Source: Burkholderiales bacterium (lineage in GTDB: Bacteria > Pseudomonadota > Gammaproteobacteria > Burkholderiales > Burkholderiaceae_C). Taken from it: a stretch of DNA of 64,000 nt. The stretch spans positions 62,001 to 126,000 of the forward strand of contig CANGHK010000001.1 of assembly GCA_947453625.1 (NCBI GenBank). The letters are read 5' to 3'. Below, piece after piece: positions 6,870 to 62,822 of this stretch. How positions within the stretch are numbered: the stretch's first letter is position 1; each line of letters starts with the position of its first letter. A program made the position numbers and the translations under genes. The notes under the pieces are model-generated. The model made no database searches. It was not told the origin of the DNA and worked only from the letters and a program-made list of their open reading frames with translations.

Positions 6870-6875
6870 GTGAGC

Positions 6876-6909
6876 CCGCCCCCGCCGCGCCCTGCGTGGT
6901 CGGGGGCGG
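6876..6909 (+). promoter_or_regulatory. Intra-operon hairpin between ugpB and ugpA
   Basis: CCGCCCCCG (6876-6884) and CGGGGGCGG (6901-6909) form a perfect nine-pair G+C stem with a 16-base loop, starting seven bases after the ugpB stop. There is no T-tract. It is probably an mRNA-stabilising or partial-termination stem that keeps the binding protein more abundant than the membrane components, as in other ABC operons. This role is inferred from position and fold only. Confidence 0.5.
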
Positions 6910-6938
6910 CTTCTTGAATCGGACCAAAGGACCCCGTC

Positions 6939-7829: not shown

Positions 7830-7844
7830 TGCATGGCTTGAACC

Positions 7845-8696
7845 GTGGTTGAACGCAGCCCGACGCTGGACTTGCTGGCCCAGGTGGTGATGGTGCTGGG
7901 CGTGCTGATCGTGGCCTTCCCGCTCTACCTCGCCCTGATCGCCTCGACCCACACCGCGCAGGCCATTGCGCAGGCGCCTATGCCCATGCTGCCGGGCGGC
8001 CATATGCTGGAAAACTATGCGGCGGTGCTGGCGGGCAGCGGCGGCAGCGGCGCGTCGAATGCGCCGGTGGGCCGGATGATGTGGGTCAGCCTGGTCACCG
8101 CGATGGCGATCACGGTGGGCAAGATCGCGGTCTCGCTGCTGTCGGCGTTTGCGCTGGTCTACTTCCGCTTCCCGCTGCGCGGGCTGGTGTTCTGGTCGAT
8201 CTTCGTCACACTGATGCTGCCGGTCGAGGTACGCATCGCACCGACCTACCAGGTGGTGGCCGACCTGGGCCTGCTCAACACCTATGCCGGACTGACGGTG
8301 CCGCTGATCGCATCGGCCACCGCCACCTTCCTGTTCAGGCAGTTCTTTCTGACCGTTCCCGACGAGTTGGTCGAGGCCGCGCGCATGGACGGCGCCGGGC
8401 CGATGCGCTTCTTCCTGGACATCCTGCTGCCCTTGTCCAAGACCTCGATCGCGGCGCTGTTCGTGATCCAGTTCATCTACGGCTGGAACCAGTACCTGTG
8501 GCCGCTGCTGGCCACGACCAGCGAGGACATGTACCCGGTGGTGGTGGGCATCAGGCGCATGATGGCCGGCGGCGACTCGGGCAACCAATGGAACATGGTG
8601 ATGGCCACCGCCGTGCTGGCCATGCTGCCGCCAACGCTGGTGGTGGTGCTGATGCAGCGCTGGTTTGTCAAAGGCCTGGTGGACACCGAAAAGTAA
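7845..8696 (+). CDS. ugpE: Glycerol-3-phosphate ABC transporter permease UgpE
   Basis: This 283-residue MalG-type permease has the EAA motif EAARMDGAGPMRFFLDILLP near residues 176-195 and the UgpE C-terminal stretch FIYGWNQYLWPLL followed by VVVGIRRMM. Its partner is UgpA. The start is GTG at 7845, because an in-frame stop at 7839-7841 rules out anything further upstream. An out-of-frame ATG overlapping the ugpA stop opens only an eight-codon reading frame. The gap to ugpC is six bases. Confidence 0.95.
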   Translation: MVERSPTLDLLAQVVMVLGVLIVAFPLYLALIASTHTAQAIAQAPMPMLPGGHMLENYAAVLAGSGGSGASNAPVGRMMWVSLVTAMAITVGKIAVSLLSAFALVYFRFPLRGLVFWSIFVTLMLPVEVRIAPTYQVVADLGLLNTYAGLTVPLIASATATFLFRQFFLTVPDELVEAARMDGAGPMRFFLDILLPLSKTSIAALFVIQFIYGWNQYLWPLLATTSEDMYPVVVGIRRMMAGGDSGNQWNMVMATAVLAMLPPTLVVVLMQRWFVKGLVDTEK

Positions 8697-8702
8697 AACG
8701 AC

Positions 8703-9782
8703 ATGGCAGCCATTTCCCTTCAAAACATCGTCAAGCGCTACGGCCACGGGCCCAAGGCCAACCCCGTCCTGCACGGCATATCGGCCGAGATCGCCGACGG
8801 CGAGTTCATCGTCATCGTCGGGCCGTCGGGCTGCGGCAAGAGCACGCTGCTGCGCATGGTGGCCGGGCTGGAAGAGATCAGCGAGGGCGAGATCTGCATC
8901 GCCGGCCGGGTGGTCAACGACGTCGAGCCGGCCGACCGCGACATCGCGATGGTGTTCCAGAACTACGCGCTGTATCCGCACATGAGCGTCTTCGACAACA
9001 TGGCGTATGGGCTGAAGATCGCCAAAGTGCCCAAGGCCGAGATAGCGCAGCGGGTGAACAAGGCGGCCGGCATTCTCGAGCTGGCGCCTTTTCTGCAGCG
9101 CACGCCGCGCCAGCTCTCGGGCGGCCAGCGCCAGCGCGTGGCGATGGGCCGGGCCATCGTGCGCCAGCCCAAGGCCTTTCTGTTCGACGAGCCGCTGTCC
9201 AACCTGGACGCCAAGCTGCGGGCACAGACCCGGCTCGAGATCCAGAAACTGCACCGCGAACTCGGCGTCACCTCGCTCTTCGTCACCCACGACCAGGTGG
9301 AGGCGATGACGCTGGCCCAGCGCATGATCGTGATGAACGCCGGCCGGGTCGAGCAGATGGGCACGCCCGAACAGGTCTACGGCAAGCCGGCCAGCAGCTT
9401 CGTCGCCAGCTTCATCGGTTCACCGCCGATGAACCTGCTGACGGGCCAGGCCGACGGCGCGCGCTTCCGGCTGGGTAACGCCGTGCTGGCGCTGCCCACC
9501 GCCGCGCCGCGCGACGGCCCGCTGGTGCTGGGCCTGCGCCCCGAGCATGTGGAGATCGCCCCAGACGGGCGCTGGCCGATGCGGGTGGAGACGGTCGAAA
9601 TGTTGGGCGCCGAGCGCCTGGTGCACGGTCGGGTTGCGGGCAGCCAGGCTGGCATGCTGTTCACGGTGCGCATCGACGCCACGCTGGCGCCGCCGGCGGT
9701 GGGGCAGACCGTGGGCCTGAATGCGGCGCCAACGCGACTGCACTGGTTCGATGCCGAGTCCGGCCTGCGGGTGGGCCTGTGA
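8703..9782 (+). CDS. ugpC: Glycerol-3-phosphate ABC transporter ATP-binding protein UgpC
   Basis: This 359-residue MalK-like ATPase has Walker [10 protein letters not shown] near residue 40, Q-loop [11 protein letters not shown], signature [14 protein letters not shown] near 138, Walker [12 protein letters not shown] near 160 and switch His in [10 protein letters not shown]. The C-terminal third is a TOBE/OB regulatory domain ([11 protein letters not shown]). It powers UgpAE. Its last four bases overlap ugpQ, which indicates translational coupling. Confidence 0.95.
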
Positions 9783-44962: not shown

Positions 44963-45709
44963 ATGGGAGCCCAGGGGCCCGCCGAGGTGTTTCAGCGCGT
45001 GGTGGTGGAGCCGGCCTACAAGGCGGTGTCGACCGCCATCGTGCGCGCCATCGTCGACGGTGCGCTGCCGCCCGGCACCGCCCTGCCCACCGAGCTGGCC
45101 TTGTCCGAACGCTTCGGCGTGCACCGCTCGACCGTGCGCGAGGCCATACGCCAGGTCGAGCAGGAGGGCTTGCTGCAGCGCCGCGAAGGCCGCCGGCTGT
45201 TCGTCTGCCTGCCGGGCGTGCATGACCTGGCGCCTCGCGCCACCCGGCTGCTGCTGCTGCACCGAACCACCTTCCAGGAGTTGTGGGACGTGGCGCTGAC
45301 GCTCGAGCCGCTGGCCGCCAAGCTGGCCGCCAGCCAGGCCACGGCAGCCGACGTCGACCTGCTGGAGGCCAACTTCTCGGCCTGCCAGGCCGAGAAAGCG
45401 TTGCCGGCGATGGTGTTGCTGGACATGGAGTTCCACGCGCTGATGGGCCGGGCCAGCCACAACCACGCGCTGATGCTGGCGCGCGAGCCGGTGGGCCTGC
45501 TCTACAACCCCACCTTGCTGCAGATCTTCGAGCGCCTGCCGCAGGCCAGCGACCGCAACCTGCGGGCGCACCGCGCCACGCTGAACGCGATAGCCCGCCG
45601 CGATGCCGCAGCCGCGGCCGAATGGACACGCAAGCATATGGTCGATTTTCAACGCGGCTTCGCGCTGGCCGGGCTCGACATGAGCACGCCCATCGCCCAG
45701 CCGACTTAA
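44963..45709 (+). CDS. GntR-family regulator, FadR/FCD subgroup
   Basis: This 248-residue protein has an N-terminal winged helix (AIVDGALPPGTALPTELALSERFGVHRSTVREAIRQVEQEGLL, residues 29-71) and an FCD all-helical effector domain whose metal-binding acidic and His residues occur in LDMEFHALMGRASHN and RAHRATLNAI. FCD regulators usually sense organic acids or sugar acids. A good ribosome site (CAGGAG) precedes the ATG. It is the first gene of a plus-strand run of transport genes, which it probably represses. Confidence 0.93.
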   Translation: MGAQGPAEVFQRVVVEPAYKAVSTAIVRAIVDGALPPGTALPTELALSERFGVHRSTVREAIRQVEQEGLLQRREGRRLFVCLPGVHDLAPRATRLLLLHRTTFQELWDVALTLEPLAAKLAASQATAADVDLLEANFSACQAEKALPAMVLLDMEFHALMGRASHNHALMLAREPVGLLYNPTLLQIFERLPQASDRNLRAHRATLNAIARRDAAAAAEWTRKHMVDFQRGFALAGLDMSTPIAQPT

Positions 45710-45744
45710 TGCCCGGGACGGGCGCATCGCAAGGAGACAGCAGC

Positions 45745-47073
45745 ATGGTCAATCAATCCGGATTCAGGCAGGTTCAGTGGCACGGTGCCGCCCTGCGGGT
45801 GTTGGCGGCCGCGGCCGCGCTGTGCGCGGGCGGCGCGGTGCAGGCCCAGCAGGAAACCTTCAAGGTCGGCATCGTCAGCTTCCTGTCCGGCCAGGCCGCC
45901 GAGAGCTTCGGCATCCCGGCGGTCAACGGCGCCAAGGTGCTGCTCGACGCCTTCAACAAGGGCGCAGCGCCCGCGCCGTACAACAAGGTCGGCTTTGGCG
46001 GCATGAAGCTCGAGTTCGTCTATGTCGACGAGAACGGCGGCGCGACCAAGCAGGTGCAGGAGTTGAAGAACCTGTACGACCGCGAGAAGGTCGACGCGGT
46101 GGTCGGCTATGTCGGCTCGGGCGATTGCCTGGCCGTCGCGCCGGCGGCCGAGGAAATGAAGAAATTCCTGATCCTCTACGACTGCGGCACGCCGCGCATC
46201 TTCGAGGACAACAAGCTGCAGTATGTGTTCCGCACCGCCTCGCACGGCGCGATGGACAACGTCGCGCTGGCGCGATACCTGAAGGCCAAGAACGTCAAGG
46301 CCGACAGCTTCAACATGATCAACCAGGACTACGCCTGGGGCCAGGACTCGAAGAAGGATTTCACCTGGTCGATGGAGAAGTTGATGCCCAACGCCAAGCC
46401 CGGCGAGGACCAGTTGCCCAAGTTCGGCGCCGGCCAGTACGGCACCGAGATCTCGGCGCTGATGGCCAAGCCGGCCGACGTGACGCACAGCAGCCTGTGG
46501 GGCGGCGACCTGCAGGCCTTCATCCTGCAGGCGGGACCGCGCGGCCTGTTCAAGAAGACGCAAGTGGTGTTCTCGGCCGGTGACCATGTGCTGCCCGGCC
46601 TGGGCGACAAGATGCCCGACGGCGTGATCCTGGGCGCGCGCGGTGCCTACGGCCTGATGTCGCCCAAGTCGGCGCTCAACGACTGGTGGTGGGACTTGTA
46701 CAGCAAGGCCTACAACGTCTACCCGGTGCAAGCCCCGTACCGGATGGTGCAAAGCCTGCTGGGCCTGAAGCTGGCAGTGGAAAAGGCGATGAGCGCCAAC
46801 GGCGGCAAGAAACCCAACCACGAGCAGTTGGCCGCGGCACTCAAGGGCAGCGAATGGGACTCACCGGCCGGCCGTATCCGCATGGCCAACGGCGACGGCC
46901 ACCAGGCGATCCAGGAGACCGCGATCGGCAAGACCCGCTATGACGCCGCCAAGAAGATGGTGATGCTCGACGACATCATGCGTTTCCCGGCCGACTGCGT
47001 GAACCCGCCGCCCAACATGAAGGCCGAAGAGTGGATCAAGGCCGGATTCCCGGGCGCGAAGAACTGCCCGTGA
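45745..47073 (+). CDS. Branched-chain-type ABC transporter substrate-binding protein
   Basis: This 442-residue periplasmic protein has a signal peptide (LRVLAAAAALCAGGAVQAQ) and a type I periplasmic binding fold of the Leu/Ile/Val family: FKVGIVSFLSGQAAESFGIPAVNGAKVL, then VGYVGSGDCLAVAPAAEE and INQDYAWGQDSKKDF. Such proteins bind not only amino acids but aromatic acids, amides or short acids, so the ligand cannot be named. It follows the regulator by 35 bases and precedes livHMGF-type genes. Confidence 0.92.
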   Translation: MVNQSGFRQVQWHGAALRVLAAAAALCAGGAVQAQQETFKVGIVSFLSGQAAESFGIPAVNGAKVLLDAFNKGAAPAPYNKVGFGGMKLEFVYVDENGGATKQVQELKNLYDREKVDAVVGYVGSGDCLAVAPAAEEMKKFLILYDCGTPRIFEDNKLQYVFRTASHGAMDNVALARYLKAKNVKADSFNMINQDYAWGQDSKKDFTWSMEKLMPNAKPGEDQLPKFGAGQYGTEISALMAKPADVTHSSLWGGDLQAFILQAGPRGLFKKTQVVFSAGDHVLPGLGDKMPDGVILGARGAYGLMSPKSALNDWWWDLYSKAYNVYPVQAPYRMVQSLLGLKLAVEKAMSANGGKKPNHEQLAAALKGSEWDSPAGRIRMANGDGHQAIQETAIGKTRYDAAKKMVMLDDIMRFPADCVNPPPNMKAEEWIKAGFPGAKNCP

Positions 47074-47177
47074 TGGCCTGACGCGTCCGGCGGCACAGGC
47101 CTGTAATGGTCTGCGCCGCCAGGGCGTCGTACCGATTTCCCACTCCCGAACCGAAAGAAATCGCCGAGCGCAAACCC

Positions 47178-48074
47178 ATGGCAGGCCTACTCACCATCCT
47201 CATCGACGGCCTGACCTATGCGTCCTGGCTGTTCATCGTCGCGCTCGGGCTCACGCTGGTCTTCGGCGTGCTCAAGATCCTCAACATCGCGCATGGCAGC
47301 TTCTACGCGCTGGGCGCCTACGCGGCGGCCAGCTTCGTCGGCTGGACCGCCAGCATGAAGTGGGCGCCCGAACTCTCGCTGGTGGCGATGCTGCTGGCGG
47401 CGGTGGCGGTGGCGGCGATCGTCGCCCCGCTGACCGAGCGCGGGCTGATGCGCTTCTTCTACGGCCGCGACGAGGTGTTGCTGGTGCTGGTGACCTACGC
47501 GATGTTCCTGATCATGGAGGATGTGACCAAGCTGGTCTGGGGCGCCAACCCGTATTACGTCTCCCAGCCCTACAGCCTGTTCGGCAACATCGACATCGGC
47601 GTGCAAACCTATGTCGGCTACGACTTCGCGCTGGTCGCGCTAGCCATCATCGTCGGGCTGGTGGTGTGGTGGGGGCTGAACCGCACGCGCAGCGGCAAGA
47701 TCGTGCTGGCGGTGATCCACAGCGCCGAGATCGCCGCCAGCATGGGCGTCAACGTGTCGCGCGTCTACATGGGCGCGTTCTCGGTCGGCATCTTCCTGGC
47801 CGCACTCGGCGGGGCCTTCACCGCGCCGATGATCTCGGTCCAGCCGGGCGTGTCGGTCGGGGTGATCATCGTCTCGTTCGCGGTGGTGATCATCGGCGGG
47901 CTGGGCAGCATCGAGGGCGCGGCGGTGGGCGCGCTGATCGTCGGCCTGGCGCGCTCGTTCGCGGTGCACCTGGCGCCGGTGACCGAACTGTTCTCGGTCT
48001 ACGTGGTGATGGCCATCGTGCTGATGTTCCGGCCAGAAGGGCTGTTCCAGCGCATCCAGGCCAGAAAAATATGA
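47178..48074 (+). CDS. Branched-chain-type ABC permease, LivH-like
   Basis: This 298-residue permease with about eight membrane segments has the LivH opening LILIDGL-type sequence, LTLVFGVLKILNIAHGSFYALGAY, and a late GGLGSIEGAAVGALIVGLA motif. It pairs with the LivM-like protein. I chose the ATG at 47178, which starts the first membrane segment properly. Its stop overlaps the livM-like start by four bases, and a hairpin repeat starts immediately afterwards. Confidence 0.93.
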   Translation: MAGLLTILIDGLTYASWLFIVALGLTLVFGVLKILNIAHGSFYALGAYAAASFVGWTASMKWAPELSLVAMLLAAVAVAAIVAPLTERGLMRFFYGRDEVLLVLVTYAMFLIMEDVTKLVWGANPYYVSQPYSLFGNIDIGVQTYVGYDFALVALAIIVGLVVWWGLNRTRSGKIVLAVIHSAEIAASMGVNVSRVYMGAFSVGIFLAALGGAFTAPMISVQPGVSVGVIIVSFAVVIIGGLGSIEGAAVGALIVGLARSFAVHLAPVTELFSVYVVMAIVLMFRPEGLFQRIQARKI

Positions 48075-49105
48075 TCCCCCCCCGAAGCGCCTTCGGCGCC
48101 CCCCCCCAGGGTGGCGACGCCAGCGGCCCGGCAAAGCCGGATCCGCGGCGTCTGCCGAGCCAGACCCGTGCTGGCCATGGCCGCACCGTGGCCCTGGGCC
48201 TGGCCGCCTGCGCGGTGCTGATCCTGGCGGGTCTGGCGATGCCCAAGTGGCTGACCTTCCTGCTGACGATGGCCGCGGCCAACGGCCTGGTCTCGCTCGG
48301 CATCGTCGGGCTGATGCGCGGCGGCGTCGTGCCCTTCGGCCAGGGCATGATGCTGGCGATAGGCGGCTATGCTGCGGCGCTGGCCTTCAACCAGTTCGGT
48401 GTCACCGACGCGCTGGCGCTGGCGCTGGGCGGGGGCGTGATGGCCACGCTGGTGGCCGCGCCCTTCGCGCCGCTGCTGTCGCGCTACCGCGGCATCTTCT
48501 TCGCGATGTTGACGCTCGCGCTGTCGATGGTGACCTACGGCCTGCTGATGAAGCTCAGCGTGCTGGGCGGATCGGACGGCTTCAACCTGGGCCGGCCCAC
48601 GCTGTTCGGCCAGCGGCTGGCCGACGCCTGGGTCGGCTACACGCTGTATGTGCTGACCATCGTGCTGGCCACCGTGATGGCCTTGCTGGCGCGGATCTAC
48701 TTCGACTCGACGCGCGGCCTGGTGACGCTGGCGGTGCGCGAGAACGAGTTGCGGGTGGAATACCTGGGCGGGTCGGTGCGCCAGGCGATGACGATCAACT
48801 TCATCCTGGCCGCCTTCTGCGGCGGCCTGGGCGGCGCGCTGGTGGTGATGTCGCTGGGCCACATCGAGCCCACCTTCAGCTTCTGGACCACCTCGGGCGA
48901 GTTCGTCTTCGTCGCGATCCTGGCCGGTTGGCAGAGCGTGGCCGCGATCTTCATCGCCAGCACGGTGCTGGAGGTGGTGCGCAGTTTCTCCAGCGCCTAT
49001 TTCCCCAACACTTGGCAACTGGTGCTGGGGCTGTTCCTGCTGTTCGTGATCCGTTTCCTGCCGCGCGGCATAGGCTCGCTGTGGATGCGGGGGGGCAACA
49101 AATGA
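48071..49105 (+). CDS. Branched-chain-type ABC permease, LivM-like, with repeat-derived N-terminus
   Basis: This 344-residue permease pairs with the LivH-like protein. Family features are GVVPFGQGMMLAIGGYAAAL, FAMLTLALSMVTYGL, GGSDGFNLGRP and AAFCGGLGGALVVMSLGHIEP. The ATG at 48071 overlaps the livH stop (ATGA). The first 30 or so residues (MIPPRSAFGAPPQGG then DASGPAKPDPRRL) are a translation of the intergenic hairpin repeat, in frame with the permease. The next plausible start is well inside the protein. The membrane part begins at about residue 41. Confidence 0.9.
   Translation: MIPPRSAFGAPPQGGDASGPAKPDPRRLPSQTRAGHGRTVALGLAACAVLILAGLAMPKWLTFLLTMAAANGLVSLGIVGLMRGGVVPFGQGMMLAIGGYAAALAFNQFGVTDALALALGGGVMATLVAAPFAPLLSRYRGIFFAMLTLALSMVTYGLLMKLSVLGGSDGFNLGRPTLFGQRLADAWVGYTLYVLTIVLATVMALLARIYFDSTRGLVTLAVRENELRVEYLGGSVRQAMTINFILAAFCGGLGGALVVMSLGHIEPTFSFWTTSGEFVFVAILAGWQSVAAIFIASTVLEVVRSFSSAYFPNTWQLVLGLFLLFVIRFLPRGIGSLWMRGGNK
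48075..48150 (+). repeat. Stop-codon-adjacent hairpin repeat, copy 2 (inside the LivM-like reading frame)
   Basis: Directly after the livH TGA the sequence reads TCCCCCCCCGAAGCGCC, TTCGGCGCC, CCCCCCCAGGGTGG, then GCCAGCGGCCCGGCAAAGCC and GGATCCGCGGCGTC. It matches copies 1 and 3 block by block. Its reading frame is open and joins livM, so it encodes the N-terminal residues of that permease. Poly-C runs here could also be prone to slippage. Confidence 0.75.
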
Positions 49106-49857
49106 CCTACATGCTCGAAGCCAAGGGGCTTGGCAAGCGCTTCGGCGCGGTGGTGGCCGCTGCCGACATCAACATCGCGATCCGCGCCGGCGAGCGCGTC
49201 AGCCTGATCGGCAGCAACGGCGCGGGCAAGACCACCTTCGTCAACATGATCACCGGCTACCTCAAGCCCGACCAGGGCCGCATCACGCTGGACGGCCAGG
49301 ACATCACGCCGCTGGCGCCGCGGACGATCACAAGGCTGGGCGTGGCGCGATCGTTCCAGATCCCGCAGCTCTACGGCGACCTGACGGTGCTGGACAACAT
49401 GCTGGTGGCCAATGCCTGCTTTGATCAGAAGCTAAGCTTCTGGCAACCGGCGCGCCGGCCCGAGGCGATAGAACGGGCCGAGACGCTGCTCGAGCGCTTC
49501 CGTCTGACCGAGCACCGCGGGCGCCGTGTCGCCGAGTTGCCCGGCGGCGTGCGCAAGCTGCTCGACATCGCGATGGCGCTAACCGGCGAACCGAAGCTGC
49601 TGCTGCTCGACGAGCCCACCAGCGGCGTGTCGGCCGACGAGAAGTTTCCGATGATGGCCACCATCATGGCCGCGCTGGGCCAGGAGGCCGGCACCACGGT
49701 GCTGTTCGTCGAGCACGACATGGACATCGTCGAACGCCACGCCAGCCGGGTGGTGGCCTTCTACGCCGGCCGCGTCATCGCCGACGACATCCCGGCCATC
49801 GCGCTGGCCACCGACGACGTGCGCCGCTACGTCACCGGCGAACTGCTGCAAGAGTAG
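49102..49857 (+). CDS. ABC ATP-binding protein, LivG-like, with altered signature motif
   Basis: This 251-residue ATPase has Walker A GSNGAGKTTFVNMITG near residue 38, Q-loop RSFQIPQLYGDLTVLDNM, Walker B LLLLDEPTSGVSADE and switch His FVEHDMDIVERHA. The signature is AELPGGVRKLLDIAMAL, in which Pro replaces the usual Ser of LSGG. It overlaps the livM stop by four bases. It should form a heterodimer with the LivF-like ATPase. Confidence 0.93.
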   Translation: MTYMLEAKGLGKRFGAVVAAADINIAIRAGERVSLIGSNGAGKTTFVNMITGYLKPDQGRITLDGQDITPLAPRTITRLGVARSFQIPQLYGDLTVLDNMLVANACFDQKLSFWQPARRPEAIERAETLLERFRLTEHRGRRVAELPGGVRKLLDIAMALTGEPKLLLLDEPTSGVSADEKFPMMATIMAALGQEAGTTVLFVEHDMDIVERHASRVVAFYAGRVIADDIPAIALATDDVRRYVTGELLQE

Positions 49858-49873
49858 CCAAGGGATCCCCAGC

Positions 49874-50526
<653 letters not shown>

Positions 50527-50527
<1 letters not shown>

Positions 50528-52197
50528 TGAACAAAACTGATCAACATGGCCTGGCCGACACGATAGCCCCCTGGTCGGGCTACCCGGTGCCGGCGATGCG
50601 CCATGAGGCGCTGTACGGCGACCGCCTGGTGCGCTGCTTTGCCGAGCGGCCGACCAGCCTGTGGGCGATGTTCGCCGCCTCGGTGGCGGCGACGCCGCAG
50701 GCCGAGGCGGTGGTCTTCGAGGGCCAGCGCTGGACTTATGCCGACTGCGCAGCGCAAGCCGGCGCGCTGGCCGCCGGATTTGCCGCCCAGGGCATAGGCC
50801 CCGGCGACCGCATCGTGCTGTTCGTCGACAACCGGCCCGAGTTCGTCTTCGTGCTGCTGGCCTTGCAGCGGCTGGGCGCCATCGTGGTGCCGGTGGGCGT
50901 GCGCGAGCAGCGGCCCGGGCTGGCCTATATCGTGCGCCAATGTGGCGCGATAGGCATCGTCGCCGACGCCGCGCTGGCCGCCCGCCTGCCCGACGCCGCC
51001 GAAGTGACCGAGCTGCGGCTGCGCGTGCTGGTGACTGACCCGTCGCTCCCGCCAGCCGGCCGCCTGCCCGGCGCCGTCGATCTGGCCGATCTGCTGCGCG
51101 CCGGCAGCGCAGTGCCGTCCGCCGCGGTAGCGCGCGACACCGACACCGCCGTCATCCTCTACACCTCGGGCACCACCGGCCACCCCAAGGGGGCGATGCT
51201 GACCCACACCAACATCGTGCACTCGGTGCTGCACTACCAGGCCTGCATGAAACTCGGCGGCGGCGAGCGCGCCGCGCTGGCAGTGCCGGCCAGCCATGTC
51301 ACCGGACTGATCGCGATCATCGCGACGATGCTGCAGGTCGGCGGCGCGGTGGTCATCGTGCCGGCGTTCAAGGCCGAAGCCTTCATCGCGCTGATGGCCG
51401 CCGAGCGCGTGACGCACACGATGATGGTGCCGGCGATGTACAACCTGTGCCTGCTGCAGCCGGGCTTTGCCAGCGCCGACTTGGACGCCTGGCGCATAGG
51501 CAGCTACGGCGGCGCGCCGATGCCGGTGGCGACGATAGACGCGCTGAACGCCCGCCTGCCCGGGCTGACGCTGCTCAATGCCTATGGCGCGACCGAGACC
51601 ACCTCGCCGGTGACGATGATGCCGATGGGCTGCACCCGCGACCATGCCGACACGGTGGGCGTGCCGCTGCCGGCCGCAGACATCCGGGTGATGGACGACG
51701 ACGGCGTCGAGTTGCCGCCCGGCGAAACCGGCGAGCTGTGGATCGCCGGCCCGATGGTGGTGCCCGGCTACTGGGCCAACCCCGAGGCGACGGCGGCCTC
51801 GTTCACCGCCGGCCACTGGCATTCGGGCGACCTGGGATCGGTCGACGACCAGGGCTATGTGCGCATCTTCGACCGCAAGAAGGACATGCTCAACCGCGGC
51901 GGCTTCAAGATCTATTCGGTCGAGGTCGAGCATGTGTTGATGGCCTGGCCAGGCATGGTCGAGGCCGCGATCATCGGCATCCCCTGCCCGGTGCTGGGCG
52001 AGCGGGTGCATGCGGTGGTCTATGCGCCCGGCGTCGCGCCCGACGACGCCGCGCTGCGCCGCCACTGCGCCGAGCGCCTGGCCGACTACAAGGTGCCCGA
52101 GACCTGGCAATGGCGCACCGAACCGCTGCCGCGCAATGCCAATGGCAAGGTGATGAAGCGGCTGTTGCGCCTGCCGCTGTCGGCCACGCCGACCTGA
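50527..52197 (+). CDS. Class I adenylate-forming enzyme (acyl-CoA synthetase)
   Basis: This 556-residue ANL-superfamily enzyme has the P-loop-like ILYTSGTTGHPKGAMLTHTN near residues 210-229, LLNAYGATETTSPVTMMP near 348, ELWIAGPMVVPGYWANPEAT, SGDLGSVDDQGYVRIFDRKKDMLNRGGFKI and the catalytic Lys near NANGKVMKRLL. It activates a carboxylic acid to the CoA thioester through an adenylate. Its overlap with the LivF-like gene suggests that the acid is the imported substrate; the acid itself is not identifiable. Confidence 0.92.
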
Positions 52198-52224: not shown

Positions 52225-53199
52225 ATGACGATGAAGATGAAGGCCACCCAGCAGACGATCGTCTTCGTGCTGTTCCTGCTGCTGTTCGCCGGCTTTGCCG
52301 TGGCGCTGCCCGGCTTTGCGCAGGTCGACAACCTGCTCACGCTGCTGCAGAACGTGGCCATCCTGGGCATCCTGGGCCTGGGCATGGCGGTCGTGGTGAT
52401 AGGCCGCGGCATTGACATCTCGATGATCGCCACGCTGGCCGTGCCTTCCGGACTGCTGCTGCAACTGGTGCAGGACGGCCACAGCCTAGGCAATGCCGCG
52501 GCGATCGCGCTGGCGCTGGCGCTGGCCTTCGGCCTGGTCAACGGCTGGCTGATCGCCTATGCCGAGGTACCGTCGCTGTTCACCACGCTGGCCTCGGGCC
52601 TGTTCCTGGCCGGGTTGGGCCAGTCCTTCCTGTTCCAGTTGGAGGTGGTGCAGTGGGCGCCAGCGATGGACCCCATCGTCTGGTTCGGCCGCGGCACGCT
52701 GGCCGGACTGCCGATGCCGGTGGTGATGTTCGGCCTGGCGGCGTCGCTGCTGGCGTTGTTCCTCAGGCGCCTGCGCGCCGGCGCCTTCATCTACGCGATC
52801 GGCGACAACCCCTTCAGCGCCCGGGCCACCGGCCTGCCGACGCGGCCCATCGTGGTGCTGGAGTATGTGCTGGCCGCGCTGATCGGTCTGTTCGCCGGCC
52901 TGGTGATGGCGGCCTCGGTCAGCAGCATGCCCACCCGCATCTTCAACTCGACCATGGTCTACGACGTGGTGCTGGTGGTCGTGCTGGGCGGCATCGGCCT
53001 GTCAGGCGGCCGCGGCGGCGTACAGAACGTCATCGTCGGCACGCTGCTGATCGGCACCATGCTCAACGGCATGACCATCATGGACATCTCGTACTCGATG
53101 CAGAACATCATCAAAGGCGTGGTGCTGCTGGCCGCGATCCTGATCGACTCGGTTCTCAACCCGCGCAACGAGGAAACCGCCCAGCAGGGCGACATCTGA
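52225..53199 (+). CDS. Ribose-type ABC transporter permease
   Basis: This 324-residue RbsC-like permease has about nine membrane segments. Typical residues are VVVIGRGIDISMIATLAVPSGLLLQL, YAIGDNPFSARATGLPTRPIVVLEYVLAA and LGGIGLSGGRGGVQNVIVGTLL. It lacks a fused domain, in contrast to the second permease of the same operon. It begins 27 bases after the acyl-CoA synthetase stop and is followed by the binding-protein gene. Confidence 0.92.
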   Translation: MTMKMKATQQTIVFVLFLLLFAGFAVALPGFAQVDNLLTLLQNVAILGILGLGMAVVVIGRGIDISMIATLAVPSGLLLQLVQDGHSLGNAAAIALALALAFGLVNGWLIAYAEVPSLFTTLASGLFLAGLGQSFLFQLEVVQWAPAMDPIVWFGRGTLAGLPMPVVMFGLAASLLALFLRRLRAGAFIYAIGDNPFSARATGLPTRPIVVLEYVLAALIGLFAGLVMAASVSSMPTRIFNSTMVYDVVLVVVLGGIGLSGGRGGVQNVIVGTLLIGTMLNGMTIMDISYSMQNIIKGVVLLAAILIDSVLNPRNEETAQQGDI

Positions 53200-53245: not shown

Positions 53246-54265
53246 ATGAAGATGAAGATGATTCGCACCCTGGCCGCCGCCAGTCTCGGTCTGACGCTCG
53301 CGCTGGCCGCCGGCACCGCCGCACTGGCCCAGGGCAAGGGTCTGGACGAGCCCTTCCGCGACGGCTACAAGAAGGCGCTGGCCGGCAAGACCGTGGGCTA
53401 CATCCCGGTGGCGATGGGCTTCGACCTGACGCAGGGCTGGTTCGACGGCCTGAAGAAAGACCTGGAGCCCTCGGGCATGAAGGTGGTGGTGCGCGACCCG
53501 AACTGGAACACCAACGCCGGTGCCCAGGCCTTCACCTCGCTGATCGCCGAGAAACCCGCCGTGATCGTGATCCACAACCCCGACGTGCAGACCTACGCCA
53601 AGCTGATCAAGAAGGCCGAGGACGAGGGCATCTACGTGGTGCAGATCAACATGCGTTCCGCCCAGGCCTCCACCGCCTTCGTCGGCGCCGACTGGGTCGA
53701 CATCGGCGAGCGCCTGACCGAAGCCGCCGCCAGCGCCTGCAAAGGCAAGAGCAACAAGATCGCCATCGTCCAGGGCGCACCCACCGCTGCCACCAGTGCC
53801 TACACGCTCAAGGGCGTGGAGAACGTGCTGGCCAAGCACCCCGAGCTGAAAGTGGTGAGCAACCAGGCTGCCGATTGGGACGCCGCCAAGGCCAAGGCGC
53901 TGACGCAGACCGTGCTCAAGCAGCACCCCGACATCTGCGGCATCGTCGGCTTCTGGGACGGCATGGACATCGGCACCGCCGCGGCGATCAAGGAAGCCGG
54001 CCTGACTGGCAAGGTCTTCCTCGGCACCTCGGGCGGCGGCGAGCAGAAAGGCACTTGCGACCTGGTCAAGTCGGGCGCCTTCGACCTGAACATCAGCTAC
54101 GACGTGCCCACCCAGGCCGCCAACATGGCGTCGATGATCAAGTGGCTGGTGCAGGGCGGCGTCAAGCCGGGCGCGGCCAAGCAGAACATCTACACCACGC
54201 TGATCCCGGTGACCAAGGACAACGCGTCCAAGGACGGCACCTGCTGGAAGCTGGCCGCAAAGTAA
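53246..54265 (+). CDS. Ribose-type ABC transporter substrate-binding protein
   Basis: This 339-residue periplasmic binding protein of the sugar (peripla_BP_4) family has signal peptide MIRTLAAASLGLTLALAAG followed by TAALAQG, then GKTVGYIPVAMGFDLTQGWFDGLKK and KPAVIVIHNPDVQTYAKLIKKAEDEG. The C-terminal half has GIVGFWDGMDIGTAAAIKEAG and GKVFLGTSGGGEQKGTC. The usual sugar-stacking aromatic residues are not obvious, so the ligand may not be a simple pentose. A hairpin repeat begins right after its stop. Confidence 0.92.
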   Translation: MKMKMIRTLAAASLGLTLALAAGTAALAQGKGLDEPFRDGYKKALAGKTVGYIPVAMGFDLTQGWFDGLKKDLEPSGMKVVVRDPNWNTNAGAQAFTSLIAEKPAVIVIHNPDVQTYAKLIKKAEDEGIYVVQINMRSAQASTAFVGADWVDIGERLTEAAASACKGKSNKIAIVQGAPTAATSAYTLKGVENVLAKHPELKVVSNQAADWDAAKAKALTQTVLKQHPDICGIVGFWDGMDIGTAAAIKEAGLTGKVFLGTSGGGEQKGTCDLVKSGAFDLNISYDVPTQAANMASMIKWLVQGGVKPGAAKQNIYTTLIPVTKDNASKDGTCWKLAAK

Positions 54266-54400: not shown

Positions 54401-56569
54401 ATGCAAGCCAGCACGACTGCGGCAGGTCTTCCGCCGCCTGAAATGAGCGAGTCGCTTTCCGAGCGACTCACCCGATTGCGCTACAAATACTGGCCCGACC
54501 ACTGGTTGGGCGAGATCCTGGCCAAGCGTTGGACCGAGACCGCGATCCCGGTGCTGCTGCTGATGCTGGTGGTGGCGATCTCGGGCCGGCTGATCAACAA
54601 CTTCTACACCCCGGTGGTGCTGGCCGACACATTGCGCCAGGCCGGCGAAGTTGGCTTCATCGTGCTGGGCCTGGCGCTGGTGATGATCGTCGGCGGCATA
54701 GACCTGTCGGTGGGGTCGATGTTCGCGCTGACCAACTTCTGCGCGCTGATGCTGATGCATGTGCTGAAGTGGCCGGTGGCGGCAGCAGTGGCAGGCACCC
54801 TGGTGTTCGGCGCGATGCTGGGCGCGATCAACGGCTTGCTGGTCGGCTATCTGCGGCTGCGCGCCTTCCTGACCACGCTGATCACGCTGATCATCTTCCG
54901 CTCGATCTACGAGATCCTTAGCCTGCAGTACAGCGTGCAGATCGCCGGCAACCTGCCCGACTCCGTGGCCTGGGATTTCCTCGGCAACGGCACCTTCGCC
55001 GGCCTGCCGACGGTGGCCTGGGCCTATGCGAGTGCGGCGATCGGCGGGCACGTGATGCTGACCCGGCTGCGCCTGGGCTGGCACATCATGGCCATCGGCG
55101 GCTCGCGCCGCTCGGCCTACAACGGCGGCATCGCGGTGCGTCGCACCGTCGCGCTGTGCTATGTCACCTGTGGTGTGCTCACCGCGGCGGCCGGCTGCTT
55201 CTTCGCCTCGCGCCTGGCCACCGCCGGCGCCGACATCGGCGTCGGCATGGAGGTGCTGGTGCTCACCGCTGCCGTGCTGGGCGGCATCAGCCTGGGCGGC
55301 GGTCGCGGCTCGGTGACCAAGGCGCTGGTCGGCACCCTGATCGTGCTGCTGATCACCAATGGGCTGACCTCGCTGTCGGCGCCTGGCGGCGTCAACCGCA
55401 TGGTGCTGGCCAGCATCCTGCTGGCCGCGGCAATGATCGACGTGCGCTGGCTGAAGAACCGTCAGCGCATCATCAGCAAGGTCTACGTGAGCCCGGCCTA
55501 CCAAGCGCTGGCGCCCGGCATCGACTGCACCACCGTGACCAGCGGCCCCTACCAGTTGAACAACAAGCTGCGCGAGGTGACGCTGATAGGCGTCGGCCAG
55601 ATCGAGGCGCCCGAGGATGTGATCCTCGACCGCCACGACAACCTGTACGCCGGCAGCCGGCATGGCGACATCATCCGGTTCTTCGCACCCGATTACCAGC
55701 GCATGGAGGTCTTCGCCCATATCGGCGGCCAGCCGCTGGGCCTGGCCTTCGACCGCGACGACAACCTGAACGTCTGCATCGGCGGCATGGGCTTGTACCG
55801 CGTCACGCCGCAGCAGGAGGTACAGCGCGTCACCGACGAGACCAACCGCAGCCTGCACTCGATCAACGACGACAGCCGGCTGCGCCTGGCCGACGATCTG
55901 GACATCGCCGACGACGGCCGCATCTTCTTTTCCGAGGCCACCACCCGCTACGAGATGCACGAGTGGCCGGTCGACGGCCTGGAGGCCCGTGGCAACGGCC
56001 GCATCGTCTGCTACGACCCGCGCGACAACAGCACCCGCACGGTGCTGCGCAACCTGCGCTTCCCCAACGGCATCGCGATCGCGTCCGACGGCCAATCCAT
56101 CCTGTTCGCCGAAACCTGGGGCTGCTGCATCAAGCGCTACTGGTTCGACGGCCCCAAGGCGGGCAAGGTCGAGATGGTGATCGACAACCTGCCGGGTTAC
56201 CCCGACAACATCAACCTGGCCTCCGACGGCAACTACTGGCTGGCGCTGGTGGGCATGCGCTGCCCGGCCTACGACCTGGCGCTGCGCATGCCAGGCTTCC
56301 GCAAGCGCATGGCCACCCGGGTGCCGCTGGACGAATGGCTGTTCCCCAACATCAACACGGGCTGCGTGCTCAAGTTCAGCGAGTCCGGCGAGGTGTTGGA
56401 ATCGCTGTGGGACCTGGGCGGAGAGAACCACCCGATGATCACCTCGATGCGCGAACACCGCGGCCACCTCTACCTGGGCGGCATCCTGAACAACCGCATC
56501 GGCCGCTACAAGCTGCCCGACGCCGACCCGAACTTCGTGCAGTACGACAAGCGCTGGGGGAAACACTGA
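54401..56569 (+). CDS. Fusion of ribose-type ABC permease with a strictosidine-synthase-like beta-propeller
   Basis: This 722-residue chimera has residues 1-350 as an RbsC-like permease (MIVGGIDLSVGSMFALTNF, GGSRRSAYNGGIAVRRTVALCY, VLGGISLGGGRGSVTKALVGT). From about residue 390 to the end it is a SMP-30/strictosidine-synthase-like propeller: EAPEDVILDRHDNLYAGSRHG, PLGLAFDRDDNLNVC, LPGYPDNINLASDGNYWLAL and NRIGRYKLPD. RbsC-type permeases usually end in the cytoplasm, so the propeller probably lies inside the cell. The ATG at 54401 is preceded by a GGAGA site. No frameshift is seen. It overlaps the next gene by one base. Confidence 0.88.
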   Translation: MQASTTAAGLPPPEMSESLSERLTRLRYKYWPDHWLGEILAKRWTETAIPVLLLMLVVAISGRLINNFYTPVVLADTLRQAGEVGFIVLGLALVMIVGGIDLSVGSMFALTNFCALMLMHVLKWPVAAAVAGTLVFGAMLGAINGLLVGYLRLRAFLTTLITLIIFRSIYEILSLQYSVQIAGNLPDSVAWDFLGNGTFAGLPTVAWAYASAAIGGHVMLTRLRLGWHIMAIGGSRRSAYNGGIAVRRTVALCYVTCGVLTAAAGCFFASRLATAGADIGVGMEVLVLTAAVLGGISLGGGRGSVTKALVGTLIVLLITNGLTSLSAPGGVNRMVLASILLAAAMIDVRWLKNRQRIISKVYVSPAYQALAPGIDCTTVTSGPYQLNNKLREVTLIGVGQIEAPEDVILDRHDNLYAGSRHGDIIRFFAPDYQRMEVFAHIGGQPLGLAFDRDDNLNVCIGGMGLYRVTPQQEVQRVTDETNRSLHSINDDSRLRLADDLDIADDGRIFFSEATTRYEMHEWPVDGLEARGNGRIVCYDPRDNSTRTVLRNLRFPNGIAIASDGQSILFAETWGCCIKRYWFDGPKAGKVEMVIDNLPGYPDNINLASDGNYWLALVGMRCPAYDLALRMPGFRKRMATRVPLDEWLFPNINTGCVLKFSESGEVLESLWDLGGENHPMITSMREHRGHLYLGGILNNRIGRYKLPDADPNFVQYDKRWGKH

Positions 56570-57659
56570 TGCTGACCGCCCTGCGTGGATTCACCGACCG
56601 CCTGCTCGGCCGTGGCAGCGCCGCGATCACCGTGCCGGTGATGGACGGCAAACTCTTGCCTAACAGGATGCTCGACCAGGCCGAGCTACTGACCGAGCTG
56701 CCCGGCATCGACGACCTGGCCTGGGATGGGCAAAGCCTCTGGGCCAGCGCCGGTGCGGTGCTGTGGCGGCTGGACGGCAGCCACTTCACCGAGCAACGGC
56801 GCTTCGAAGCCGACATCAGTGCCATCGCGTTCTCGCGCCAGGGCCGGCTGGCCGTCGGGATTGGCGGCACGCAGGTGCTGGTGCTGGGCGCCGACGGTGT
56901 GGTCCAGACGACGCTCGACAACCTGGCCGGCAGACCGCTGCACTGCGTCAACGCGTTGGCCTGGGACGGCGAGGAGGCGCTGTTGTTCACCGATGGCTCG
57001 ACCCGGCGCGGCCCGGCGCAGTGGAGCCACGACCTGATGGAGCTTGGCCGCAGCGGCCGCGCCGGCCGCTGGTGGCTGCTCTCGGGCGCGGCCGAGTTGC
57101 TGGCCGACGGCCTGGCCTATGCCTACGGCGTGCTACCGGGGTCCGGCGGTGTGCTGCTGTCCGAGAGCTGGCGCCACCAGGTGCTGCTGCGTGGTGCGAC
57201 CGGGGCCACGCCGGTGCTGGCCGAGCTGCCGGGCTATCCGTCGCGGATGACGCCGGCCGCCGATGGCGGCTTCTGGCTCAGTTGCTTCGTCTGCCGCACG
57301 CAGTTGGTCGAATTCGTGCTGCGCGAGCCGGCCTACCGCCAGCGCATGATTGCCGAGATCGATCCACGCCACTGGATCGCGCCGGCGCTGTCTTCGGGCC
57401 ACAGCTTTCTGGAGCCCCTGCAGGGCGCGGGCGTCAAGCAGATGGGCGTGATGAAACCCTGGGCGCCGCCTCGCTCCTACGGTCTGGTGCTGCAGGTCAG
57501 CGCCAACGGCCGCATCCAGCGCTCGCTGCACAGCCAGGTCGACGGCCGTCACCATGGCATCACCGCCCTGCTCGAGCAGGGCGGCCAGTTGTACGCCGCC
57601 TCAAAGGGCAGCGGACGGCTGCTGCGTGTCGACCTGCACCCGCATGAAGGAGCTGCAAC

Positions 57660-57663
<4 letters not shown>
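56569..57663 (+). CDS. Strictosidine-synthase-like / SMP-30-like beta-propeller protein
   Basis: This 364-residue protein without a signal peptide is a paralogue of the propeller part of the fused permease. Matching elements are LPGIDDLAWDGQSLWASAGA, LAWDGEEALLFTDGST, LADGLAYAYGVLPGSGGVLLSESW, ELPGYPSRMTPAADGGFWLS and LREPAYRQRMIAEIDPRHW. The family includes calcium-dependent lactonases and strictosidine synthase. The substrate is unknown and the metal ligands are not fully assignable by eye. It shares the TGATG junction with the fusion gene and overlaps the ATPase gene by four bases. Confidence 0.85.
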
Positions 57664-59159
<1,496 letters not shown>

Positions 59160-60694: not shown

Positions 60695-61285
60695 CTACTG
60701 GAAATGCCCCAGAAAATGCGCCAGCGCGCGCAGTTCGTCGTCGCCCAGACGGTAGACCGCATCGCCCATCGCCGCGACGCCGCCGCCGGTGCGTGCACCG
60801 GACTTGAAGTCACGCAACGCCTTCAACAGGTAGTCCTCGCGCTGGTTGGCGGTGCGGGCCGTGGCCTGGGCACCGGCGTAGTCGTCCTTGTGGCACGACG
60901 CGCAGCGGTTCTGCTGCGCCAGGCGTTGCCCGACGCTGTACATCGCCGGGTCGGCAGCGCCGTTGGCACCCGGCTTGGGCGGCGCCTGGGCCGCGAAGTG
61001 ACCTGCCAAGCCGCGGATGTCGTCGTCGGTCAATCCCGCCGCCATCGGCTGCATCACGGCCGACTTGCGCGTGCCGCTGCGAAAGTACACCAGTTGCCAC
61101 TGCAGGAAACCTTCGGGCTGACCCGCCAGCGACGGTGTCTCCGGCAGTTGCGAAACACCGGCCGCACCGTGGCACAGGGTGCAGGCCTCGAGCTTCGCCG
61201 AGATCACGGAACTCGCCGAAGTGTCGGCGGCCGCGCTCGCTGCATGGGCCATCAACAGCGCCCAAAAAATCGTCCAAACCCGCAT
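60695..61285 (-). CDS. Periplasmic diheme cytochrome c (c4-like)
   Basis: This 196-residue protein has a signal peptide (MRVWTIFWALLMAHAASAAA) and two heme motifs, CTLCH near residue 33 and CASCH near 130. Each is followed by a Met-containing segment (QPMAAGLTDDDIRGLAGHFAAQ and GVAAMGDAVYRLGDDELRALAHFLGHF). It carries electrons in the periplasm, probably from a dehydrogenase to an oxidase. It follows the sorbosone-type dehydrogenase on the same strand, but a terminator separates them. The ATG at 61285 was chosen for the signal peptide. Confidence 0.9.
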   Translation of the reverse strand: MRVWTIFWALLMAHAASAAADTSASSVISAKLEACTLCHGAAGVSQLPETPSLAGQPEGFLQWQLVYFRSGTRKSAVMQPMAAGLTDDDIRGLAGHFAAQAPPKPGANGAADPAMYSVGQRLAQQNRCASCHKDDYAGAQATARTANQREDYLLKALRDFKSGARTGGGVAAMGDAVYRLGDDELRALAHFLGHFQ

Positions 61286-61305
61286 GTCATGTGTCCTGTG
61301 TCGCC

Positions 61306-61340
61306 AAAAAAAAGATGCCCGCCGCTTGCGCGGCGGGCAT
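61306..61340 (-). terminator. Strong Rho-independent terminator of the sorbosone-type dehydrogenase gene
   Basis: On the minus strand ATGCCCGCCGC and GCGGCGGGCAT form an eleven-pair stem with a four-base loop, then after a C a run of eight T. It begins 16 bases after the stop at 61357. The cytochrome gene downstream must therefore rely on read-through or its own promoter, which would have to lie within the 20 bases up to its ATG at 61285 or in the terminator itself. Confidence 0.93.
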
Positions 61341-61356
61341 GCACCGACGCGCGGTG

Positions 61357-62625
61357 TTACTTCGAGTAGCTGATGCGGTAGATCGCGCCCGCCCAATCGT
61401 CGGCGACCAGGATGGAGCCGTCAGCCGCCTGCAGGATGTCGGCCGGACGGCCGCTGTAGGACTGCTCACCCGTCAGCCAACCGGACGCGAACACCTGTTC
61501 CTTGATGTTCTTGCCGTCCGGGTCGGTCGTGACGCGCATGATGCGCGCGCCCTGGTACTTGTGACGGTTCCAGGACCCATGCTCGGCGATCAGGATGTTG
61601 TTGGCGTAATCGGCCGGGAACTGGTTGCCGGTGTAGAACTTCATGCCCAGCGGCGCCACATGGGCACCCAGTTTCAGCGCCGGGGGCGTGAACTCGGAGC
61701 ACTTGCGGCCGACGCCATACTTGGGGTCGAGCATGTCGCCCTGGTGGCAATACGGGTAGCCATAGTGGGCGCCGATCTTGGCCACATGGTTCAGCTTGTC
61801 GCTGGGCAGGTCGTCGCTGACCCAGTCGCGCGCGTTCTCGGTGAACCAGTAGTCGCCGCTGCGCGGATCGATGTCGCCACCGACGCTGTTGCGAACGCCG
61901 ATCGCCATCAACTCGGCCTCGCCGGTGTCCGGGTTGACGCGCCGCACCTGAGACAGGCTGGTCGGCGGCAGGCAGATGTTGCACGGCGGGCCGAACGGCA
62001 CGTAGAGCCGGCCTTCCTTGTCGAAGGTCAGGTATTTCCAGCCATGCGGGATATACGCCGGCATGTCGCTGTAGACGACCTTGGCCTCGGGCATCTTGGC
62101 CAGACTGGCTTCGGCGTTGTCGTATTTCAGAATCTTGTCGATGTCGGCGACGTAGAGCGCACCCTTGCGGAAGGCGACCCCGGTGGGCATCTTCATGCCG
62201 GTCAGGATGGGCTTGACGGTCTTGCCGTTGTCGGTGATCGCGTAGACCGTGCCGACGCCGAACGAGCCGACGAACAGCGTGCCCTTGTCGCCCCAGGCCA
62301 TCTGGCGCGCGCTGTTCACGCCCTGGGCGTAGACGCTGATCTTGAAGCCGGGCGGCAACTTGACGGCCGCCAGGCTCTTCTCGAGGTCGGCCATCGAGGC
62401 CGGCAGCGCCGGACCGGCGGGCGGCGCCAGTCCCTTCTGGGCCACGGTCTCGTCACCGAGGAACCAGTCTGCTGGCGGGTGCTCCCAGAAGTCCTTGGTC
62501 GTGGAGTCGTAGCTCTTGACCGCCTGCGCCTGCGCCGCCGACAGCGTGATCAGCGTGAGGCAGGCGCCGGCAATCAAGGCGCGGCTGAACGTCTTGCGGG
62601 TCGATGTATTTGTTCGTTCCGTCAT
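61357..62625 (-). CDS. L-sorbosone / PQQ-dependent-type sugar dehydrogenase, periplasmic
   Basis: This 422-residue protein has signal peptide ALIAGACLTLITLSAAQAQ. The six-bladed propeller of the soluble glucose or sorbosone dehydrogenase type follows: LPPGFKISVYAQGVNSARQM, IPHGWKYLTFDKEGRLYVPFG, IGVRNSVGGDIDPRSGDYWFTEN and ILIAEHGSWNRHKYQGARI, ending SILVADDWAGAIYRISY. Such enzymes oxidise aldoses or sugar derivatives with PQQ and pass electrons to cytochrome c. The substrate is unknown. CxxC-type cysteines (PPCNICLPP) are seen. GAGGAGA before the ATG supports the start at 62625. Confidence 0.88.
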   Translation of the reverse strand: MTERTNTSTRKTFSRALIAGACLTLITLSAAQAQAVKSYDSTTKDFWEHPPADWFLGDETVAQKGLAPPAGPALPASMADLEKSLAAVKLPPGFKISVYAQGVNSARQMAWGDKGTLFVGSFGVGTVYAITDNGKTVKPILTGMKMPTGVAFRKGALYVADIDKILKYDNAEASLAKMPEAKVVYSDMPAYIPHGWKYLTFDKEGRLYVPFGPPCNICLPPTSLSQVRRVNPDTGEAELMAIGVRNSVGGDIDPRSGDYWFTENARDWVSDDLPSDKLNHVAKIGAHYGYPYCHQGDMLDPKYGVGRKCSEFTPPALKLGAHVAPLGMKFYTGNQFPADYANNILIAEHGSWNRHKYQGARIMRVTTDPDGKNIKEQVFASGWLTGEQSYSGRPADILQAADGSILVADDWAGAIYRISYSK

Positions 62626-62822
62626 GTAAGTCTCCTCGGGTTTGCAAATCAGCAAGCCCCCGGATGGGACCACGCGACTGTTCGGCTGGCAGCTAGAACA
62701 TTCCCTAGTAATGTCGCCATTTTCGAGAAGAGTGCGGATCGAGACCGGGCGACCTGGCACCGGGCTGGCGTGCGAGGCCAATTCCCGAACCCTTAAGATC
62801 CCTCCATGAACCTGATCTCCGC

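Follow-up and report, generated by a model that had tools for sequence, protein, structure and literature searches.

Permeases of the RbsC type normally end at the membrane, and RbsC itself has both termini in the cytoplasm. Where other ABC importers are known to carry cytoplasmic regulatory domains, these reside on the ATPase. An enzyme domain that acts on the imported substrate has been described for the mycobactin importer IrtAB, whose fused FAD-dependent reductase domain is essential for one substrate and not for a second, water-soluble one, and leaves the ATPase rate unchanged (PMC10246721). Among propeller proteins, rice TGW6 is an IAA-glucose hydrolase whose authors describe N167, N226 and N272, together with Glu-59, as a partly conserved calcium site; it has no bound calcium and contains one acid, where calcium-binding relatives have a second (PMC10958001). 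DFPase-like proteins have a calcium site made up of Glu, Asn, Asn and Asp (PMC4215206, PMC12362111), and most strictosidine-synthase-like proteins retain metal ligands and are more likely to be hydrolases (PMC4215206).

Here we describe a locus in which an RbsC-type permease, which we call permease A, continues in frame into a six-bladed propeller. It lies in a 64,000-nucleotide stretch of a Burkholderiales genome, referred to as the window (contig CANGHK010000001.1, positions 62,001 to 126,000). A reading of the sequence made without database searches (hereafter the sequence-only reading) had pointed to this fusion as a layout for which it knew of no experimentally described transporter. We likewise found none among the titles and abstract openings listed from an open library of 5.39 million papers, which leaves out most subscription journals.

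Gene content of the cassette

The fusion is the third gene of a five-gene cassette with the order permease B, binding protein, fusion, free propeller, ATPase (Table 1). BPD_transp_2 permeases, a Peripla_BP_4 protein and a double ABC ATPase are thus found in one gene run, as in CUT2/RbsABC importers; the NCBIfam transporter equivalogs, among those listed, all scored far below cut-off for the cassette. The sequence-only reading had noted that the operon supplies every other importer part; it did not mention the second, free propeller.

Table 1. Positions in the window of the cassette genes, the parts of the fusion and the associated upstream genes.
Feature	Coordinates	Strand	Evidence
LIV-type importer, upstream; associated, not core	45283..50527	+	open frames, Pfam
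AMP-forming acyl-CoA ligase; associated, not core	50527..52197	+	Pfam, NCBIfam
Permease B, BPD_transp_2, without propeller	52225..53199	+	Pfam
Substrate-binding protein, Peripla_BP_4, ribose/allose type	53246..54265	+	Pfam, NCBIfam, likeness to sugar-binding proteins
Permease-propeller fusion, 722 aa	54401..56569	+	open frame, Pfam, AlphaFold model, Foldseek, related loci
Membrane part of fusion, RbsC/AraH type, residues ~45-348	54533..55444	+	Pfam, NCBIfam, model, hydropathy
Linker of fusion, residues 346-386	55436..55558	+	alignment of relatives; low model confidence 358-372
Six-bladed propeller of fusion, residues ~387-706	55559..56518	+	Pfam, alignment, model, Foldseek
Second, free propeller, 364 aa	56569..57663	+	open frames, alignment, model, Foldseek
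RbsA-type ATPase, two ABC domains	57660..59159	+	ATG overlaps free-propeller end; Pfam, NCBIfam

To compare the cassette with its relatives, we compiled 102 loci (100 distinct): the best 80 of 145 relatives that the fusion protein retrieved from 84,980 species genomes in a pattern-based scan, 8 plasmid records and 14 genome regions. Because the whole fusion served as the query, this collection is biased toward fused forms. Every evaluable locus encodes permease B (98/98), the binding protein (100/100) and the ATPase (92/92). The free propeller was recovered by script in 92 of 96 evaluable loci; in the other four it sits in a longer open frame that the distance filter had removed, so that all 96 encode it. 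Fusion and free propeller are tightly spaced. In the window the ATG of the free propeller shares one base with the TGA of the fusion, and across the 96 pairs, with counts that rest on the chosen start codons, the overlap is 4 bases in 58 and 1 base in 23, the remaining 15 consisting of overlaps of 19 bases (8 pairs) and 238 bases (6 pairs, probably a wrong start) and one gap of 5 bases.

The flanks of the cassette are less uniform. The acyl-CoA ligase, which in the window ends 27 bases before permease B, has an upstream counterpart scoring at least 100 bits in 29 of 89 evaluable loci, and in 11 of the 37 evaluable loci titled Bradyrhizobium. Other neighbours include a short-chain dehydrogenase, a carboxymuconolactone decarboxylase, an aldehyde dehydrogenase, regulators and a LIV binding protein, as identified partly from record annotation (the eight plasmid records) and partly by eye, and no shared pathway emerged among the flanks. 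Since the flanks vary and the ligase is found in 29 of 89 loci, the substrate class may differ between copies. The LIV-type importer of the window comprises a frame with a binding-protein domain, a BPD_transp_2 permease and two ABC ATPases, with a second permease read by eye at about 48075-49105. This importer and the ligase (45283-52197) are on the same strand directly upstream of the cassette, and the whole is likely one operon with two ABC importers.

Further observations concern the surroundings. The segment 54262-54400, which spans the 135-base GC-rich gap before the fusion, is predicted to fold with a z-score of -2.59, 2 of 200 shuffles being as stable; it is a possible attenuator or 3' stabiliser. 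Beyond the cassette, and apparently unrelated to it, the minus strand at 60695-62781 shows a protein of the glucose/sorbosone dehydrogenase type (GSDH match) next to a c-type cytochrome-like protein with two CxxCH motifs, noted by eye.

Annotation names the fusion after one of its halves. Of eight public records, six call it "SMP-30/gluconolactonase/LRE family protein", one "ABC transporter permease" and one "Ribose transport system permease protein RbsC"; the free copy is a "hypothetical protein" (7) or "strictosidine synthase" (1). A study of expression in Bradyrhizobium bacteroids names a gluconolactonase gene and a sugar permease gene, neither of which we could connect with the cassette (PMC6321122).

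Structure and continuity of the fusion

The fusion is translated from 722 codons without a stop. Its Pfam matches are BPD_transp_2 at residues 75-343 (3.3e-28), SSL_N at 382-427 (3.4e-12), Str_synth at 498-584 (7.6e-20) and SGL at 429-619 (1.7e-13); both halves exceed the Pfam cut-offs. Against PF03088 the protein scores 71.3 bits (curated cut-off 25), and in its six-bladed fold as well it belongs with the strictosidine-synthase-like (N6P) proteins. The PF03088 profile matches the fusion gene and no other in the window's own genome; the fusion protein used as a query there also retrieves permease B, the free propeller and, elsewhere, one weak match (18.5 bits).

An AlphaFold model of the fusion, built on a 33-row alignment, is of moderate quality (mean pLDDT 75.7, pTM 0.54). 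It contains about 10 membrane helices, the last of which reaches residue ~359, followed by strands from 394 to 704 that we grouped by hand into six sets of four or nearly four. When the model was searched with Foldseek, the top matches were strictosidine synthases (4imb, 9e-15), followed by TGW6, DFPase and the RPA3624 lactonase; the output carries no aligned ranges, and coverage of the propeller is judged from the identities of the targets. Taken together, the fold matches and the modelled strands suggest that the propeller is complete. Confidence falls below pLDDT 50 in the linker (358-372) and in the loops 480-494, 516-521 and 638-651, and because the linker is among these segments, the model leaves the relative placement of permease and propeller unfixed.

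Permease and propeller share one frame in all 102 loci, which come from Burkholderiales, Alphaproteobacteria and Pantoea, and no split version was found among them. The junction thus lacks the stop or frameshift that might have betrayed two separate genes, the modelled propeller is folded, and the architecture of RbsC-type permease, linker and propeller stands as first proposed. We conclude that the permease-propeller fusion is a genuine and conserved one that is probably functional, which agrees with the earlier judgement that it was "probably" not accidental.

The linker and the membrane side of the propeller

No solved structure was matched by the sequence of the permease half at E 0.01. 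The linker following it consists of two parts: residues 346-367 are positively charged and conserved, with a mean column identity of 0.82 that equals the conservation of the propeller, and residues 368-386 are variable (0.48). Its length is nearly constant, with 28 residues between the Y362 and L390 columns in 37 of 41 rows. The coupling loop 223-245 bears arginines and the exit after residue 348 is rich in arginine and lysine, which by the positive-inside rule assigns both to the cytoplasm. No stretch in residues 371-722 rises above the hydropathy threshold of 1.3, and no signal peptide was seen by eye in the fusion or the free propeller. These features lead us to a strong inference that the fused propeller faces the cytoplasm, where the sequence-only reading had also placed it.

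A candidate metal site in the fused propeller

In an alignment of 99 fused propellers (97 distinct), E405, D406, D499, N556, D602 and N603 are invariant, and the D498 position is Asp in 93 rows and Asn in 6. Unfused homologues (n=21) keep much of this set: E405, N556 and D602 are present in all 21, D498 in 20 (Asn in the other) and N603 in 16 (Gly in five). The closest PDB sequence to the fused propeller is 8kg3 (4.7e-25), which is TGW6. D498, N556 and N603 align with N167, N226 and N272 of TGW6, a single offset of 28 between chain and paper numbering fitting all three, and D602 aligns with the residue preceding N272. The sequence alignment stops short of E405, which we take, by its motif, to be the equivalent of Glu-59. 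D498 would supply the bacterial candidate site with the second acid that is absent from TGW6.

The fused propeller thus appears to keep the calcium-site residues of related hydrolases, and we have moderate confidence, based on these residues, that it binds a metal. By the same evidence, it is more likely to be a hydrolase than a strictosidine synthase. The true synthase joins tryptamine and secologanin at a metal-independent site, and the conserved metal-site residues argue against that activity here. The description "strictosidine-synthase-like" therefore holds for the PF03088 family and the fold, and the label "strictosidine synthase" misleads, because the metal-site residues are kept, as they are in most strictosidine-synthase-like proteins.

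The free propeller as a degenerate twin

The free propeller is confidently modelled as a propeller (pLDDT 90, pTM 0.88), and its Foldseek matches include strictosidine synthase and, for the free copy only, PON1. In the window it scores 13.7 bits against PF03088, under the cut-off of 25; six relatives' free copies exceed that cut-off in a scan of 398 Pseudomonadota genomes. In every one of 93 aligned free copies (91 distinct), Arg or Lys stands at the N603 position and Ser, Ala or Gly at that of D602. The N556 position is Phe or Tyr in 80 rows and Asn in 2, and 91 rows have Ala in place of D499. An acidic residue is often kept at position 405 (Glu in 50, Asp in 32) and the D498 position is Asn in 78, counts that vary with the alignment. 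Judged from its residues, the free propeller is a degenerate copy from which most of the putative metal site has disappeared.

A second difference is an insert at residues 273-304 (window 57385-57480) that is absent from the fused propeller. It is the best-conserved part of the free propeller, with an identity of 0.79 as against 0.52-0.63 elsewhere, and the model is partly of low confidence here (blocks of 59 and 55). We infer that it could serve as a docking loop. A hydropathy peak of 1.62 near residue 93, over the threshold of 1.3, was taken for a buried strand in the modelled fold.

Distribution and origin

In genome samples chosen independently of this gene, the fusion is uncommon. Full-length copies were found in 11 of 398 Pseudomonadota genomes, the window's own included. 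Within that scan, in which at most two candidates were scored per genome, each of the 15 listed places that reached 50% identity was full-length; one has a TGA within the match, followed by a 707-codon frame in which both halves are still present. Counting the window's genome each time, the fusion is present in 3 of 60 relatives (2 of the 3 in its own genus) and in 2 of 300 genomes of its order, Burkholderiales; in the class to which genome G055 belongs, read as Alphaproteobacteria from named relatives, 7 of 289 genomes have it. Several genomes have two or three copies, and 15 plasmid records contain matches covering at least 80% of the length. The cassette therefore looks like a mobile catabolic unit, uncommon and patchy, rather than a set of core genes. 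Far from being a singular oddity, the fusion belongs to a cassette of five genes that many Pseudomonadota share.

Two genomes, G055 and G191, each contain three paralogous cassettes, with fusions that are 58, 59 and 52% identical to that of the window in G055 and 73 and 50% in two of those in G191, which suggests different substrates. A record titled Frankia sp. RB7 contains a Bradyrhizobium-like copy that is 73% identical to the window's, which may reflect a mistaken title or a foreign contig.

The propeller half was also followed on its own. PF03088 matched 49 places in 35 of the 398 Pseudomonadota genomes: 17 are fusion frames of at least 700 aa (11 genomes), 6 are free partners beside a fusion and 26 are others. 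Twenty-three of these 26 fall in the window's GTDB class, 3 of them in its order, and 3 fall outside the class. The 16-kb regions around 11 of the 26 contain no cassette permease or binding protein, two of them having generic ABC ATPase matches only (44-67 bits). Among the places examined, the propeller is thus either fused within the cassette or located away from it.

Over 98 sequences, the propeller half has diverged less than the permease half (mean distances of 0.22 and 0.30). The distances of the two halves are correlated (r 0.97), a pattern that common ancestry by itself would also produce. When 25 fused, 25 free-partner and 21 unfused propellers were placed in one approximate maximum-likelihood tree, the three sets fell into separate groups (supports 0.92, 1.0 and 0.995); the free-partner branch is long and of uncertain position. 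The best propeller-less relative of permease A among the matches listed in the 398-genome scan, at locus L148 of a genome from the window's order (6432-8972, minus strand; 42% identity), is itself a fusion, in this case to the double ATPase; permease B and the binding protein keep their usual order. Because this permease runs straight into the ATPase, both propellers of the cassette occupy a site that is empty in L148, and judged by this one outgroup they may have been either gained or lost.

Discussion

We favour, with a probability of about 0.45, a reading in which the cassette encodes a CUT2/RbsC-type importer whose permease A bears a hydrolase propeller; this would cleave the import where the channel opens into the cytoplasm, and the free propeller would be its partner. 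The binding protein would capture a sugar-containing or lactone/ester compound, and the pair of permease A and permease B, powered by the double-domain ATPase, would move it inward. The fused propeller would then take the compound at the channel mouth and hydrolyse an ester or lactone bond, trapping the products inside the cell. Docked on its fused counterpart or on permease B, the free propeller would play a structural or regulatory part, and in this genome and some relatives the neighbouring acyl-CoA ligase could activate the released acid. The parts of this reading differ in strength. We have moderate confidence in catalysis by the fused propeller, given its conserved residues, and little in docking of the free one. 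Equally weak is the choice of an acyl-sugar, ester or lactone as substrate, a guess that fits because the binding protein is of a sugar type, TGW6 cuts a glucose ester, a fold relative of the fused propeller cleaves a lactone (PMC12362111) and an acyl-CoA ligase is nearby.

Several points count against hydrolysis. TGW6 has no bound calcium, and the site may accordingly work metal-free or merely bind a ligand; a sensor would likewise conserve its ligand pocket; the model of the fusion is moderate; and the free copy is often still acidic at position 405. The sequence-only reading had left it at a compound that is processed, or sensed, at the pore exit. Of these, processing is the better reading in view of the conserved calcium-site residues, and sensing becomes its chief rival.

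In that rival, binding of the imported compound or a metal to the propeller, with no turnover, would inhibit or license transport, much as cytoplasmic regulatory domains do on other ABC importers. A conserved linker of fixed length would suit the transmission of a signal, a paired propeller without a site would suit allostery, and the calcium-free TGW6 site points the same way. However, the residues of a hydrolytic site are kept in all 99 fused rows and largely in the 21 unfused homologues, and known regulatory domains of this kind are found on the ATPase. Moreover, since the IrtAB domain leaves the ATPase rate unchanged, domains borne by transporters need not be gates. We consider gating or sensing unlikely as the main role.

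Less probable again is that a heterodimer of fused and free propellers serves mainly to hold the complex together or to recruit downstream enzymes. This would account for a free copy in all 96 evaluable loci, with start and stop codons overlapping in most pairs, and for a best-conserved segment, the insert, that resembles a docking loop. It leaves unexplained, however, why the metal site is kept in the fused copy only.

A slightly poorer candidate still is a neutral event, in which neighbouring genes were joined once and an ordinary soluble enzyme has since been tethered without consequence. The fused propellers do form one tree group, and a patchy, partly plasmid-borne spread would let a single event travel. 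Yet none of the 102 loci, drawn from alpha-, beta- and gammaproteobacteria, has split again, the linker hardly varies in length, and the propeller is better conserved than the permease. Finally, a frameshift, sequencing or assembly artefact was rejected as next to impossible, the single frame recurring in every locus (102/102, 100 distinct), in many assemblies and in eight named plasmid records.

A bolder form of the hydrolase reading, which we regard as doubtful, is a membrane metabolon in which the permease pair meets a propeller pair, the fused one catalytic and the docked one a pseudoenzyme, and substrate is channelled past the cytosol. This would be a general class of importer, possibly for plant acyl-glucose esters, with a single machine for both uptake and initial cleavage.

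If a hydrolase does sit at the channel exit, the cassette would represent a widespread class of importer that unites uptake with the first step of catabolism in a single protein and has a conserved pseudoenzyme at its side. Substrate channelling from an ABC importer would become directly testable, at least 100 genes now named after one half would be explained, and there would be a lead to the compounds taken up by soil, plant-associated and freshwater bacteria.

Comparison with known systems

The cassette shares its permease family, binding-protein family and double-domain ATPase with CUT2/RbsABC importers such as those of RbsC, AraH and YtfT. It departs from them in that permease A, instead of ending at the membrane, has a C-terminal propeller, and in that a second propeller is present in the operon. 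TGW6 (8kg3) and the N6P proteins have the same fold as the fused propeller, and TGW6 is the best sequence match; of the four site positions that its authors name, three can be aligned. TGW6 is, however, a free plant protein, whereas the cassette propeller is tied to a permease and D498 adds a second acid. DFPase, Drp35 and the RPA3624 lactonase likewise share the fold; these are free proteins with 14-17% identity in the fold match. A natural fusion of a calcium propeller lactonase is known in DrSOD of Deinococcus radiodurans, but its partner there is a superoxide dismutase (PMC12362111).

IrtAB is alike in outline, in that an enzyme domain on a transporter subunit acts on the import. It differs in having an exporter fold and an N-terminal reductase on a long flexible loop. 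We saw no homology between the two, and the Pfam families of the fusion are other than the exporter fold and siderophore interaction domain of the IrtAB type. Any database of domain architectures should show the pairing of BPD_transp_2 with a propeller. Importer, propeller and enzyme on a transporter are each known; their combination, together with a degenerate twin, did not turn up in the open-access literature searched.
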